Shown here: piece after piece, positions 30,985-46,774 of the stretch
How positions within the stretch are numbered: position 1 is the first letter of the stretch
Layout of the letters: every line of letters starts with the position of its first letter
Assembly (NCBI GenBank): GCA_021847795.1
Contig: JAJZPZ010000009.1
Location: 1-47,752 of the forward strand
DNA: 47,752 nucleotides
Direction of reading: 5' to 3'
Source: Nitrospirota bacterium
GTDB taxonomy: Bacteria > Nitrospirota > Thermodesulfovibrionia > Thermodesulfovibrionales > Dissulfurispiraceae
Notes under the pieces: generated by a model
What the model was told of the DNA's origin: nothing
The model's input: only the letters and a program-made list of their open reading frames with translations
The model's database searches: none
Made by a program: the position numbers and the translations under genes

Positions 30985-31107
30985 TTAAACAAATCCGAAA
31001 TCCTAATATCTGAATCCTGAACAAATTCAAATGACCGAAAATCAAAACGTTTTGAACGTTTGAGTTTGTAATTTCGATATTGTTCGGGATTTAGTATTTC
31101 GGATTTA
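30985..31107. repeat. B-type heptad hairpin repeat (B3)
   Basis: AAATCCGAAATCCTAATATCTGAATCCTG...ATCAAAACGTTTTGAACG...ATTTCGGATTTAGAATTT; psd stop codon lies inside. Confidence 0.75.
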
Positions 31108-31761: not shown

Positions 31762-31937
31762 ATCAGTGACAAGTAACCTCTTTAGTAACGAGTAACATCA
31801 ACAACAGTAACGAGTAACAAGTAAAGGATCTGAAGACAGTGACAAGTGACGAGTCTGAAGGCAGTGACGAGTTTTTAGAGTCTTTAGTCTTTAACTTGTT
31901 ACTTGTTACTTGTGACTGTCTTTAGAGTTACTGTTGT
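31762..31937. repeat. A-type heptad hairpin repeat (A2)
   Basis: CAGTGACAAGTAACCTCTTTAGTAACGAGTAAC...GTTACTTGTTACTTGTGACTGTC; reverse complement near-identical to A3. Confidence 0.82.
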
Positions 31938-33118: not shown

Positions 33119-33142
33119 CCCTTCAGGGATAGGGATTATGAA

Positions 33143-33308
33143 CAGGGCTGGCAGGTGTGACGAAGGGCCGTTCAGAGCGATACCTTGTGCCGAACCCTCC
33201 CGCCGTATAAAGGCAATTTCAGCACCACCTGTCCACGAGACAGAAAAACAGGCACTATGGTGATTTTATCGCATTATGAACGGCCCTTCGTCACACCTGC
33301 CATCCCTG
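33143..33308. other. Long-stem element E1 (candidate structured RNA/DNA element)
   Basis: 32-bp arms, 31/32 complementary (33143-33174 with 33277-33308); core GCGATACCTT...TTTTATCGCATT shared with E2. Confidence 0.8.
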
Positions 33309-33367
33309 CCTACGAATGATGTGCTGTCGCATTGTCAATTTTTCGCGCGAGGCTATACAATGATGTG

Positions 33368-36459: not shown

Positions 36460-36494
36460 CTTCCTGGCAGCGGGTCAGTCTGCCGAAAAGCCTA

Positions 36495-36665
36495 AAGGCA
36501 GTAACAAGTAACTCTAAAGACAGTGACAAGTCACAAGTAACAAGTAACAAGTTAAAGACTAAAGACTCTAAAAACTCGTCACTGCCTTCAGACTCGTCAC
36601 TTGTCACTGTCTTCGGATCCTTTACTTGTTACTTGTCACTAAAGAGGTTACTTGTTACTGCCTTC
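36495..36665. repeat. A-type heptad hairpin repeat (A3)
   Basis: GCAGTAACAAGTAACTCTAAAGACAGTGACAAG...CTTGTCACTGTCTTCGGATCCTTTACTTGTTACTTGTCACTAAAGAGGTTACTTGTTACTGCC. Confidence 0.82.
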
Positions 36666-36716
36666 AGCAGCCATAATCTTATATAATAAAGGCGTGCATA
36701 AACACAGGAGGTTAGG

Positions 36717-37008: not shown

Positions 37009-37353
37009 TCAGGACCGTATCATCACCAGCAGCATCTTGAACTTCTTCAGGGCCTTTAACGCATGTGGCTGGTTTGCGGGCATTATGATCATCTCCCCGG
37101 CCTTCAGCGCATGGGGCTCATGTGAAATGGTGATCTCCGCTTCGCCGTCAACAATATATGCGAGCGCATCGAACGGGGCGGTATGTTCGCTCAGGCCCTG
37201 CTCCTCGTCGAAGGCAAAGAGGGTCACAGTCCCCGTGCTCTTTTTGATGATTTCCCTGCTCACCACGGACTGCTCCTGGTAGTTGATCAGGCCGGGCAGT
37301 TCAATGACCTGTGAATCTGCGACCCCGGGTTTTTTCCCTGCTTCAATTTTCAT
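37009..37353 (-). CDS. Small cupin-domain protein
   Basis: AFDALAYIVDGEAEITISHEPHALKAGEMIIMPANQPHALKA. Confidence 0.88.
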   Translation of the reverse strand: MKIEAGKKPGVADSQVIELPGLINYQEQSVVSREIIKKSTGTVTLFAFDEEQGLSEHTAPFDALAYIVDGEAEITISHEPHALKAGEMIIMPANQPHALKALKKFKMLLVMIRS

Positions 37354-37460
37354 TGTCGTCCTCCTTCCTGCATTAGGCTGGAGCTATTGCCTGTCGCCTA
37401 TAGCTAATCCTATCCGATTCCCCTTCGGAAATCAACCACTCCCGCATACTTTAACTTACA

Positions 37461-37659
37461 GTTGCATAAAGCTCCTCAAAGCGGAAGGGGAGGGATGAAC
37501 CAAAAGCTTTACGGCGATACCTTTGAAGATTTTCATACCACCCCACCGAAATCATAAGCCGGAAGGCACTTCACGTGAACCTGTGCAATTCCCGATGAAT
37601 ACGGTTTTTTATCGCATTGTAAAGGTTTTGGGGCATTCCTCCCCTTCCGGTTATGCAAC
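37461..37659. other. Long-stem element E2 (candidate structured RNA/DNA element)
   Basis: GTTGCATAA/TTATGCAAC outer pair; CGGAAGGGGAGGGATGAACCAAAAGCTTTAC (37482-37512) pairs with GTAAAGGTTTTGGGGCATTCCTCCCCTTCCG (37619-37649); core GCGATACCTT...TTTTTATCGCATT. Confidence 0.78.
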
Positions 37660-37762
37660 GTTAAGGTTTACTCTTGATAAAAAGTTCACCTTTAGCTATC
37701 ATTTAAAGTAAAAAAACCGGCTGCCTGCCTTGAGGTCCCCGGGATTCGGACTGGAGGGTGCC

Positions 37763-37987
37763 ATGATAACCAGGGAGAGAGTAGAAGAGGTTTTGAATAA
37801 AATACGGGTCGGCCTCAAATCAGAGGGCGGTGACATTGAATTAATTGAAGTAAAAGACGATATAGTATATGTGAAGCTGAAAGGCGCATGCGGGACATGC
37901 CCTATGTCGACCCTGACCATGAAGAACTGGGTTGAAACAACAATGAAGAAGGAGATCCCGGAAGTCAAGGCTGTTCAGGCGGCATGA
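37763..37987 (+). CDS. NifU C-terminal (Nfu) domain protein, copy 2
   Basis: MITRERVEEVLNKIRVGLKSEGGDIELIEV...KLKGACGTCPMSTLTMKNWVE. Confidence 0.92.
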   Translation: MITRERVEEVLNKIRVGLKSEGGDIELIEVKDDIVYVKLKGACGTCPMSTLTMKNWVETTMKKEIPEVKAVQAA

Positions 37988-40036: not shown

Positions 40037-40045
40037 AGGGGAACG

Positions 40046-40215
40046 GCAAATCCGAAATCCTAATTTCTAAATCCTAAACAAATCCCAATGACCAAAGTCC
40101 AAAACGGTTTTGAGCATTTGGATTTAGTATTTAGATATTGTTTGGAATTTCGTGCTTGGGATTTGGAGTTTGCCGTTTGTTCGGGATTTGGAAATTAGTG
40201 CTTCGGATTTGTCTT
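40046..40215. repeat. B-type heptad hairpin repeat (B4)
   Basis: AAATCCTAAACAAATCCCAATGACCAAAGTCCAAAACGGTTTTGAGCATTTGGATTTAGTATTTAGATATTGTTTGG; near-identical to reverse complement of B6. Confidence 0.82.
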
Positions 40216-40232
40216 TCAGCGGGAGGCAGAGC

Positions 40233-41804: not shown

Positions 41805-41893
41805 TTCTGAATTCCAAATCCCAAGCCCCAAATTCCAATACATGTGGAAAAATCCGCTTTGGGATTTGGAGTTCGGAACTGGGAATTCGGGGA
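41805..41893. repeat. Short B-type hairpin repeat (B5)
   Basis: CCAAATCCCAAGCCCCAAATTCC...GGGATTTGGAGTTCGGAACTGGGAATTC. Confidence 0.65.
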
Positions 41894-41901
41894 GTGTCTT
41901 G

Positions 41902-42669
41902 ATGCAGCCGGTCATCGGCATTGCCTGCGACATGGACGACGAAGTGTTCAGGCTCAGGCGGAATTATGTTTCTGCAATAACTGATGCAGGCGGAATCCCG
42001 TTGGTGATCCCCCCTTCGGCAAAGGATTGCAATATAACCCGGATAGCGGATATTATCAGCGGACTCCTCCTGCCCGGAGGCGGAGACCTGCCCCCGGAGT
42101 ATTATGGAGAGGAGCTTTCCGTGCCCCGGGAGTGCCTGATATCTGTAAGGAAAGAGAGGATTGAATGGGAACTCGCGCTGCTGAAAGAGGCAATGAAAAG
42201 GGAGCTGCCTGTTCTGGGCATATGCCTCGGCATGCAGCTCATCAATGTTGCGCTCGGAGGAGACCTTTACCAGGACATCAACCTTCAGGTCCCCGGAGCC
42301 GGTGACCACAAAAAAGGCGCTCATGCAATAAAAGTCAGCCGGGCTTTTCTTTCAACCTTCAGTCTTCAACCTTCAGCCTTTGCCGTCAATTCCTACCACC
42401 ACCAGGCGGTAAAGACCCTTGCCGGGGGCCTGGAAGCGGATGCGGTTTCTGAAGACGGAATAACCGAGGGGTTTATCAAAAGGGATTATCCCTTTCTCGC
42501 AGGGGTACAATGGCACCCTGAGCGGCCCCTCTGTAAACAGACCTCTCCGGGAGCACAGGAAGAGGCATCGCGACTTTTGTTAAACTCCCGGAGTTGTGAT
42601 AAACTTTCAGTAAAGATATTCGCGACCTTCATCGAAAAGGCGAGGATAGGGAGAAATTCTAAATCCTAA
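41902..42669 (+). CDS. Gamma-glutamyl-gamma-aminobutyrate hydrolase-like class I amidotransferase (Peptidase_C26, PuuD-like)
   Basis: LLPGGGDLPPEYYGEE, PVLGICLGMQLINVALGG, VNSYHHQAVK, GVQWHPE. Confidence 0.9.
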   Translation: MQPVIGIACDMDDEVFRLRRNYVSAITDAGGIPLVIPPSAKDCNITRIADIISGLLLPGGGDLPPEYYGEELSVPRECLISVRKERIEWELALLKEAMKRELPVLGICLGMQLINVALGGDLYQDINLQVPGAGDHKKGAHAIKVSRAFLSTFSLQPSAFAVNSYHHQAVKTLAGGLEADAVSEDGITEGFIKRDYPFLAGVQWHPERPLCKQTSPGAQEEASRLLLNSRSCDKLSVKIFATFIEKARIGRNSKS

Positions 42670-42797
42670 GCACGAAACTCCAAACAATATCAAAATACTA
42701 AATCCAAATGCGCAAAACCGTTTTGGACTTTGGTCATTGGGATTTGTTTAGGATTTAGATATTCGGATTTCGTGCTTGTTATTTATTTGGGATTTGA
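42651..42797. repeat. B-type heptad hairpin repeat (B6)
   Basis: GAGAAATTCTAAATCCTAAGCACGAAAC...CAAAACCGTTTTGGACTTTGGTCATTGGGATTTGTTTAGGATTTAGATATTCGG. Confidence 0.82.
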
Positions 42798-43871: not shown

Positions 43872-45051
43872 CAGGGCGGAGCTGAAAGAGCTTGCATCGA
43901 TGGACGGCAAGGGCAGCTATTACGTGAGCCTGTACTTTAATGTCGACCCCATTCTGAATAAAAGAGGCGATTACGACATACACTTCAAAAACATGGTGAA
44001 GAGCAAAATTGAATCTCTTGATAAAGAGCAGTATAAAAGGGTAAAAGCCGATATCGATAAAATCACCGATTATGTCTTTTCCAACAGGAGAATGTTTAAA
44101 AAGGGCCTTGTCCTGATAAGCTCCGCAGGCAATTCCGTCTGGAAAGTGTACCATCTCGGGGTCCCGGTGCGGAACGAGCTGGTTATCGGCAAGACACCTT
44201 ACACGGAGCCCCTGGCTGATGTGCTGGACAATTATGAAAAATTCGCCGTGCTGCTTGTAGAGAAGGAGGATGCAAGGATCTTCGTCATCCATCTCGGAGA
44301 GATTGTGGAATACAGCGAGATCCATACTTCCGGCGTGCCGGGGAAGCATAAGCAGGATGTCTGGTTTGCACTTTCCAAAACTGCCGCCACGAAGCATATG
44401 GCAAATGCCGGAAAAGGGGGGCTTGGAGTCACCGGACTGAGGACTGACCACTACCAGAGGCACATAGACACCCATGTAAGAATGCATGTAGAAGATGCGA
44501 TTAAAGGGCTCGACTCCTTTGTGGAGGGGGAGCGCATCGGCAGGATCATTATCGGCGGCTCTGACGAGGCCGTTTCAATGACTAAGGGGCTGCTTCATAA
44601 GACGATCCTCGATAAAGTGGCGGGTGATGTGAAAGCAGAGATGTTTGCAACTCCGGACGAGGTCCTTAAAATAACGATGCCCATCGTTGAGGCATACGAG
44701 AGGAAGCAGGAAGAAGAGACTGTCGGAAAGCTGATCACCCTGGCATTGAGCGGCGGGGCTGCCGTATTGGGGCCGGCTGATGTAATTGCGGCGCTCCGGG
44801 AGAAAAGGGTGATGAGTCTTGTCATACTTAAGGACCTGCATGCAGAAGGTTTTGTTTGCGGAAACTGCGGGCTCCTGAGCGCCCGGAAGGTTGAACCCTG
44901 CCCTGCATGCGGGGGGAAGATGGAGCACGTTGATTACCTGGCCGATTCGGCCGGAGAGCTTGCGATCCGGCAGGGGGCGATCATTGAAGTGGTCAATGAC
45001 AACAAGCAGCTGGCGGAGCATGGCGGCATAGGGGCGTTTTTGAGATTTTAA
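43864..45051 (+). CDS. Bacterial eRF1-like / Vms1-like protein with zinc ribbon
   Basis: SYYVSLYFNVDP N-terminus; YQRHIDTHVRMHVEDAIKGL; RIIIGGSDEAV; CGNCG...CPACGG. Confidence 0.75.
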   Translation: MLDRAELKELASMDGKGSYYVSLYFNVDPILNKRGDYDIHFKNMVKSKIESLDKEQYKRVKADIDKITDYVFSNRRMFKKGLVLISSAGNSVWKVYHLGVPVRNELVIGKTPYTEPLADVLDNYEKFAVLLVEKEDARIFVIHLGEIVEYSEIHTSGVPGKHKQDVWFALSKTAATKHMANAGKGGLGVTGLRTDHYQRHIDTHVRMHVEDAIKGLDSFVEGERIGRIIIGGSDEAVSMTKGLLHKTILDKVAGDVKAEMFATPDEVLKITMPIVEAYERKQEEETVGKLITLALSGGAAVLGPADVIAALREKRVMSLVILKDLHAEGFVCGNCGLLSARKVEPCPACGGKMEHVDYLADSAGELAIRQGAIIEVVNDNKQLAEHGGIGAFLRF

Positions 45052-45053
45052 GA

Positions 45054-45228
45054 AAGCAACGAGTGACAAGTAACGAGTTGAGATAAGCTTACATGCAGTT
45101 ATGATTGTTATAGGTGTGATATATTAGACAAGTATGATTTTCGCTCATAGTGCGCGTAATACGTTCCGTGGTAATTCTTTTGTGAGTATGTTTTTTTTAC
45201 TCGTTACTCGTTACTTGTTGCTCGTTGC
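45054..45228. repeat. Split A-type heptad repeat (A4); right arm lies in the SBP signal peptide
   Basis: GCAACGAGTGACAAGTAACGAGTT (left) and TTTACTCGTTACTCGTTACTTGTTGCTCGTTGCTG (right). Confidence 0.72.
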
Positions 45229-46774
45229 TGTTTTCTCAGGTCTCCTTTCCTGCACTCCGGCCAAGCGCTCCTATGACTATATCTTCTACCGGATGAATGC
45301 AGATCCTACCACGCTCGATCCGGCACTTATTGTCGATGTCCCCGGGGCATCGATTGCTGCAAAGCTCTTTAACGGACTCGTAAGGCTCAATGAAAGCCTT
45401 GACATTTCTCCTGATATAGCCGGGAAATGGGAGATCTCGGGAGATGGGTTGAAGTACAGGTTCTCCCTCAGGAAAGGGGTAAAGTTCTCCAACGGCCGGG
45501 AGGTCAGGGCAGGTGACTTCAAATATTCCTTTGAGAGGATACTCGAGCCCCGGACAAAATCCCCCAATATCTGGGTTTTCGACAAAGTGAAAGGGACAAA
45601 AGAGTACCGTGAAGGGCATGCAAAGGAAGTAAGCGGCTTTAAAGTGATTGATGATTACACCTTTGAAATCCGGCTGAAAAGGCCGTTCTCCCCGTTCCTG
45701 AGCATGCTCACCATGACTGCAGCTTATGTCGTCCCCCGGGAAGAGGTGAAAAAATGGGGTGTGGACTTTTCGAGCCATCCCGCAGGCGCCGGGCCTTTTG
45801 TCCTGGCACGGTGGTTGCCGAACAGGGAGGTGGCGCTGGAAAGGAGGAAGGGGTATTTTGAGGGCGCTGCAACCGTCAAGGGCATTGTATACAAAATCAT
45901 CCCTGAAGACCTGACAGCGATCACGGAGTTTGAGCTCGGGAACCTTGACGTGATCTCCCTTCCGGCATCGGCGTATGCGAAATTCAGAAACGACAGCAGG
46001 TGGAGCGGGCATATCCTGTCGCTGAAAGGATTGAATACCTACTATCTCGGCCTCAATGCATCTAAGCCCCCTCTCAACGACGTGGAACTCAGGAAGGCCG
46101 TCTCATACGCGCTGGACAGGAAAAAAATACTCGACACCTTTTACGAGGGAAGGGGCCGGCTTGCTGCCGGGCCTGTCCCCGACCTGCTGAGAAAGTGGGA
46201 CCTGGATGCCGGTCTCAGGGACCTCTATGGCTATTCTCCGGACAAGTCAAAGGATATAGTCAGGAAGAAGAGCAGGGGGGGCATCGACGTTGCCCTGTAC
46301 ATAACTGCGGACCCGGATGTTGTGGACCTGGCTGAGATCATCCAGTCCTACCTTGCGGATGTCGGGATTCGCGTGCATATAAAACAATTGGAATGGAGCG
46401 CGTATAAAGAGGCGATAAACAGGGGGGAGCCGGATATGTTCTGGCTCAGCTGGTGGGCCGATTACCCTGATGCCGAGAACTTCCTGTTCCCTCTTTTCCA
46501 CTCCTCGAATTTCGGCCCTGCAGGCAACAGGACACACTATGCCGACAAGGAAGTCGATGCCCTGATAGAGCAGGGGCAGTACTCTTTGAACAAGGGGGAA
46601 AGGGACCGCTGCTATAAGAGTGCAGAGGAGATCATCATACGAGATGCGCCATGGGTGCCCTTCTGGCACAGGACTGACTTTCTCGTCGTCCAGCCGTGGG
46701 TAAAAGGCTATAAGGTCTATCCCATCTATTCCATGGACAAGGGTATGGGCATAGACCTGGAACAGAAGAGGTAA
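45188..46774 (+). CDS. ABC transporter substrate-binding lipoprotein (SBP_bac_5, OppA/DppA-like)
   Basis: Lipobox GLLSC; ADPTTLDPALIVD; LNGLVRLNESLDISPDIAGKWEISGDGLKYRFSLRKGVKFSNG; likely start ATG 45188 or GTG 45182. Confidence 0.92.
   Translation: MFFLLVTRYLLLVAVFSGLLSCTPAKRSYDYIFYRMNADPTTLDPALIVDVPGASIAAKLFNGLVRLNESLDISPDIAGKWEISGDGLKYRFSLRKGVKFSNGREVRAGDFKYSFERILEPRTKSPNIWVFDKVKGTKEYREGHAKEVSGFKVIDDYTFEIRLKRPFSPFLSMLTMTAAYVVPREEVKKWGVDFSSHPAGAGPFVLARWLPNREVALERRKGYFEGAATVKGIVYKIIPEDLTAITEFELGNLDVISLPASAYAKFRNDSRWSGHILSLKGLNTYYLGLNASKPPLNDVELRKAVSYALDRKKILDTFYEGRGRLAAGPVPDLLRKWDLDAGLRDLYGYSPDKSKDIVRKKSRGGIDVALYITADPDVVDLAEIIQSYLADVGIRVHIKQLEWSAYKEAINRGEPDMFWLSWWADYPDAENFLFPLFHSSNFGPAGNRTHYADKEVDALIEQGQYSLNKGERDRCYKSAEEIIIRDAPWVPFWHRTDFLVVQPWVKGYKVYPIYSMDKGMGIDLEQKR

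Follow-up and report, generated by a model that had tools for sequence, protein, structure and literature searches.

A miniature transposon of Nitrospirota-type genomes whose plus strand looks selected as a folded nucleic acid

The genome of a Nitrospirota bacterium contains, within a 47,752-nucleotide stretch (assembly GCA_021847795.1, contig JAJZPZ010000009.1; hereafter the window), two long-stemmed sequences, E1 and E2. A sequence-only reading had placed E2 at 37461-37659 and considered it the second member of a long-stem family with different arms and the same core. What kind of sequence is E2: a stationary RNA gene, a mobile element, or a mobile element whose fold matters in itself? E2 proved to be a 213-bp insertion (37454-37666) with 16-bp terminal inverted repeats and TTTA on either side, and the earlier span had trimmed both of its ends. 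The exact ends, the TTTA duplication, the transposable-element nature and the strand-specific signal described below were absent from that reading. The features are as follows (R1 is the covariance model presented below).

33142-33310, plus strand: E1, an older, E1-type copy of the family to which E2 belongs, with decayed outer ends (R1, 161.8 bits, E=5e-39)
37450-37453, no strand: left copy of the target-site duplication, TTTA, a direct repeat abutting E2
37454-37469, plus strand: left terminal inverted repeat, ACTTACAGTTGCATAA (family form CCTTACAGTTGCATAA)
37470-37481, plus strand: 12-nt spacer at the junction of terminal repeat and stem, solely on the 5' side (from sequence and fold)
37482-37512, plus strand: 5' arm of the long stem
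37514-37617, plus strand: structured core, GCGATACC...TATCGCAT (from pattern match and R1 alignment)
37619-37649, plus strand: 3' arm of the long stem
37651-37666, plus strand: right terminal inverted repeat, reverse complement CCTTAACGTTGCATAA
37667-37670, no strand: right copy of the target-site duplication, TTTA

The interior of E2 is a long imperfect stem enclosing a core of about 100 nt. Its arms aligned with a score of 24, against a maximum of 16 among 5000 shuffles, and the plus strand folded at -84.2 kcal/mol (z -6.9), a value equalled by 0 of 200 shuffles; the fold of the minus strand gave z -4.7. The stem arms that had been proposed from the letters were borne out (37479-37512 / 37619-37652, 85% complementary), as were the outer pair (37455-37469 / 37651-37665, 87% complementary) and the 12-nt bulge on the 5' side, which is the spacer 37470-37481. 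Copies in another genome, G030, display a comparable 5'-side excess between terminal repeat and stem.

E2 is located between divergent neighbours, a frame for a cupin-domain protein (37009-37353, minus strand) and a frame for a NifU-domain protein (37730-37987, plus strand). The same genome (G000) has a second E2-type copy on contig C94, 98% identical over 219 bp and flanked on both sides by TTGTTTA. No empty orthologous site was found in the relatives G001 and G007: G001 aligns to the locus from 37672 rightwards only, and G007 retains both neighbours, separated by a longer, unalignable gap. The window also carries clusters of AGTAACAAGTAACAAGT-like short repeats, direct and inverted, that are unrelated to E1 and E2 (31764-31918, 36492-36667 and 45050-45234), and a second inverted-repeat set with AAATCCTAA / CCAAATCCCAA words (30991-31106, 40041-40217, 41805-41878 and 42653-42785).

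The relationship between E1 and E2 was addressed with R1, a covariance model constructed from 49 aligned and folded E1-type copies of this and related genomes, with E2-type sequences excluded. R1 matched E2 with 53.7 bits (E=7.7e-12) at 37480-37652. Palindromic structure by itself can earn a score, 47 bits with R1 for the reverse strand of E1; the reverse strand of E2 gave no match at E<=1. Because an E2-free model finds E2 while the reverse strand of E2 does not match, we conclude from the sequence comparison that E1 and E2 are homologous, what is clearly common being restricted to the core ends, GCGATACC...TATCGCAT, and the stem plan. The "same core" put forward earlier thus stands for the core ends and the bulge, and falls for the central hairpin, whose sequence is not common. 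Conversely, the arms, which had been said to share no clear sequence with E1, are remotely related, since the R1 alignment runs across them. Chance similarity of the two cores, which had been named as a refuting outcome, is ruled out by the R1 match and by covariation beyond that of shuffled alignments. The suspected multicopy family is real: the genome holds at least 18 R1 matches at E<=0.001, in addition to the 98% identical E2-type copy, and the suggested search for the core pattern returned 6 occurrences, with 0 for the reversed pattern. At two further loci of this genome (L142 and L143, on contigs C48 and C127), GGCAGTGGGGCAGTCTGCCGG arms accompany a core of a third type (GCGATACCTTATAAAGTG...); the one in C48 adjoins an inverted E1-type copy, and that in C127 adjoins E1-like arm sequence. 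The cores of L136 and L114 (146 and 134 nt) contain an extra small hairpin, between arms that are near-perfectly complementary.

The family extends well beyond this genome. The core pattern matched in 7 of 60 genomes, the source genome counted, and R1 matched in 44 of 130 genomes of the order (E<=0.001) and in 43 of 295 genomes of the phylum (E<=1e-6); R1 counts per genome are lower bounds, with 21 candidates scored in each genome of the order survey and 9 in each of the phylum survey. The R1-positive genomes of the phylum include other families of the class (f15, f19) and a remoter one (f23), in which the R1 matches of G205 and G211 directly adjoin the same 16-bp end. Genuine copies occur in records named as a Thermodesulfovibrionales MAG, a Nitrospirae groundwater MAG and a record labelled Nitrospira japonica. 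The core sequence varies between subfamilies, and GCGATACC and ATCGC are retained in distant families. A search of 72,556 plasmid and 50,697 phage records with E2 gave no match. Seven core-pattern matches in viral contigs were dismissed as chance, those inspected being without paired arms by eye, as were five of nine pattern matches in genome contigs (L039, L041, L043, L044 and L045), likewise without paired arms by eye; L049 had been merged with its duplicate and so was absent from this inspection. Chance loci were left out of later counts, and the duplicates L038 and L042 were also left out of one set. In G003, an identical 100-nt core forms the very start or end of several contigs (L270-L276), with different arms beyond; either assembly or a genuine burst of copies with identical cores may account for this, and it was not used as evidence.

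Evidence for mobility comes from genomes rich in copies. In G030, the end pattern matched 96 times, against 6 for the reversed pattern, and at least 40 places of 163-215 nt were 96-100% identical. Both ends and flanks were available for 27 copies out of 30 loci, of which 18 showed an exact 4-bp duplication, compared with 507 of 5000 mismatched flank pairs sharing 4 bp or more; the duplication consensus is TTWA, with T as base 1 in 26 of 27 and A as base 4 in 23 of 27. One copy is nested within an E1-type core and flanked on each side by TTCA, and the interrupted E1 copy therefore represents an empty site. G249, which belongs to another family of the class, gave 330 end-pattern matches and 0 reversed. 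In the 416 kb covered, 72 elements had both ends (45 lone left ends were left out) and fell into three size classes: 15 of 210-219 bp, 28 of 75-110 bp and 23 of less than 75 bp, besides 1 of 113 bp and 5 of more than 240 bp. Exact 4-bp duplications flanked 20 of the 72, against 452 of 5112 mismatched pairs, and were distributed as 10/20 among elements of at least 180 bp, 7/28 in the middle class and 3/23 in the short class. Most of the 14 middle-class copies inspected carry one common core deletion, which suggests that the short form itself may transpose; a deletion hotspot acting after insertion is the alternative. G135 follows the same plan, and 5 of its 9 paired elements show an exact 4-bp duplication.

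With 16-bp terminal inverted repeats, a target duplication, a small size (213-215 bp), multiple copies and no transposase gene, the family has the make-up of a MITE. A stationary, immobile family of RNA genes or riboregulators would explain the conserved structure and the intergenic location, but the target duplications, the recent burst and the nested insertion make it very improbable in general and refute it for G030 and G249. Just as improbable is an integron attC site, a REP/REPIN element, an IS200/605 end or a known Rfam RNA, even though long, imperfect and bulged hairpins look superficially alike. The core sites of attC are ordered RYYYAAC ... GTTRRRY, whereas the outer pair of E2 reads, by eye, GTT...AAC, the opposite order; real target duplications argue against RAYT and IS200/605. 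Rfam returned 0 matches at gathering score for the whole window and 0 at E<=1 for six loci, and further permissive searches gave weak matches only, all under the gathering score.

The ends are not uniform across the family. Besides the family end sequences, CCTTACAGTTGCATAA / CCTTAAYGTTGCATAA, an alternative type, CCATAATCCGTA, is found on E1-type copies of G010 and other genomes. Among 32 rows with both CCATAATCCGTA ends recognised (locus L148 counted twice), 12 displayed exact duplications of 5 bp (5 rows) or 6 bp (7 rows), compared with 0/992 and 8/992 mismatched pairs, respectively. CCTTA/CCCTA..GTTGCATAA ends with a 4-bp duplication are carried by E2-type copies and by E1-type copies of G013, the latter judged by eye on few copies. 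Given these differing end types and duplication lengths (4 vs 6 bp), one transposase does not explain all copies. In a set of 75 copies with a core of 95-106 nt, L130 and L148 (G010) and L112 (G030) have direct repeats of 13-20 bp at their ends, not 6 bp, and at least one of the three has a truncated end. Retrotransposition, first suggested by these three loci, was rejected, as the duplications of most copies are consistent with 6 or 4 bp.

No autonomous parent, with matching ends 400-3000 bp apart, was found among the loci examined; three longer end-to-end intervals of G249 contained, by eye, ordinary-looking reading frames, and no transposase with either end type was found in these loci and intervals. 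IS1380-type elements resemble the family in their CC-starting ends and AT-rich target (copies L243 and L246), but their ends do not match: none of 6 IS1380 loci, in 3 of 8 genomes, had the 16-bp ends of this family, and IS1380 was discarded as a partner.

Mobility alone leaves the palindrome to be explained. In an ordinary MITE, it would simply be long terminal repeats, with arms kept alike by hairpin-templated copying around a functionless core, as the near-perfect arms of some copies (L114, L136), the duplications flanking core-less forms and the differences in core sequence among subfamilies would have it. Alignment A1 has 95.5% of 1799 cells paired and double changes in 24 of 37 pairs, and its covariation of 0.407 exceeds that of shuffled alignments (0.167; 0 of 500 reach it) and of slid ones (<=0.077); such covariation may be inflated by relatedness and by arm-to-arm copying, palindromes covarying when one arm templates the other. 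Mismatches between the arms are more telling, since arm copying predicts equal numbers of G.U-type and A.C-type. In 70 distinct copies with a core of 88-106 nt, aligned without favouring G.U, mismatches of the G.U type numbered 145 and those of the A.C type 16; about 100 of the former fall at five stem positions and are thus not all independent, and counting by distinct context gave 73 and 13. Mutation bias is an unlikely cause of this excess because C->T and G->A changes are near equal in fresh G030 copies (18 and 19 cells). In G249, G.U to A.C was 11:3 in core-bearing copies and 11:14 in core-less ones, both small numbers. In addition, two adjacent stem positions, GA opposite GA, keep non-pairing bases in 59 of the 70 copies, a persistent mismatch that fits a tandem G.A motif and speaks against arm copying. 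With the persistence of GCGATACC and ATCGC across distant families also against it, we regard the ordinary MITE as unlikely. Taken together, the wobble asymmetry, the covariation and the tandem G.A retention point to selection on folding of the plus strand, which looks selected as a folded nucleic acid, likelier RNA than single-stranded DNA.

The orientation of copies relative to genes, taken here as simple open reading frames called without a gene finder, is strongly biased. Among 67 elements placed in G249 (those above 240 bp left out), 42 of those between co-directional genes are antisense and 1 is sense (p=1e-11), the antisense to sense ratio being 18:0 in the middle class, 15:0 in the short class and 9:1 among full elements. 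Genomes of the same family as the source gave 31:11 (13:3 in G030 and 18:8 in the others, a set that includes at least one palindrome, L005, counted on both strands), and G135 gave 3:1. With moderate confidence, we prefer the explanation that plus-sense insertions would harm operons over that of polarised insertion, in which a transposase/target complex reads the direction of transcription or the stop-codon context and so fixes orientation from the outset. The 42:1 ratio, core-less copies included, speaks for polarised insertion, as do 14 of 50 G249 copies 3' of a co-oriented gene that start <=8 bp from its stop codon. The equal bias of the core-less 48-110-bp G249 copies favours either polarised insertion or shortening after insertion. 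However, the bias is weaker (31:11) in same-family genomes and many insertions lie far from any stop codon, and we find orientation set at insertion rather improbable.

Our preferred reading, to which we give a probability of about 0.7, is that E2 is a MITE copy whose plus strand is maintained in folded form, most probably as RNA, with an effect at the level of the transcript. A putative trans-acting transposase would recognise the 16-bp ends and, on inserting the element, duplicate 4 bp of target (TTWA), and this non-autonomous DNA transposon would have spread through Nitrospirota-type genomes. Upon transcription in the plus sense, the hairpin may, much like ERIC or NEMIS RNA, serve as a signal for processing the transcript, for its stability or for its termination; selection would then purge plus-sense insertions inside operons, so that the copies that remain are antisense to the operon around them. 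A bolder proposal, which we offer tentatively and do not expect to hold in full, is a phylum-wide mobile RNA: a structured module carried by two or more kinds of miniature transposon (CCTTA..GTTGCATAA with a 4-bp duplication, and CCATAATCCGTA with a 6-bp one), selected as RNA, made antisense to operons, and inserted or retained almost one-way.

Several known systems are of the same kind. According to the part of the source cited here, ERIC/IRU/RU-1 of enterobacteria is a small non-coding mobile hairpin of 127 bp with terminal repeats and a duplication, and alters mRNA stability in one orientation (PMC2229807). It thus resembles this family in being a mobile hairpin with terminal repeats, a duplication and an orientation-dependent RNA effect; compared by description only, it differs in hosts, core and ends, this family being phylum-wide in Nitrospirota-type genomes. 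Correia/NEMIS elements of Neisseria are, in the same partial account, small mobile hairpins of 107/155 bp proposed as RNase III targets in mRNA, TA-ended with 24-bp repeats, whereas this family is CC-ended, with a TTWA duplication and a conserved core (PMC2229807). The bcr1-bcr3 elements of the Bacillus cereus group are MITE-like, with mobility tied to a TTTAT motif, and are often transcribed in UTRs; compared by description only, they are confined to one species group, and the portions of the two articles drawn on here report no one-strand selection (PMC6542083, PMC3446304). Set apart by these descriptions, the present family is of the same kind as ERIC, Correia/NEMIS and bcr1, yet a separate one. 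Searches of the open literature on Thermodesulfovibrio/Nitrospirae MITEs, on transposition in Thermodesulfovibrionales and on bacterial MITE RNA structure showed no description of it in the titles and abstract openings listed.

In the portions of the literature cited here, bacterial MITEs belong to single genera or species groups, whereas this family carries a structured, strand-specific hairpin phylum-wide. It combines recent bursts in some genomes with a 42:1 bias relative to transcription, and its natural series of full, core-less and ends-only forms would let the influence of a mobile RNA on operons be tested directly.
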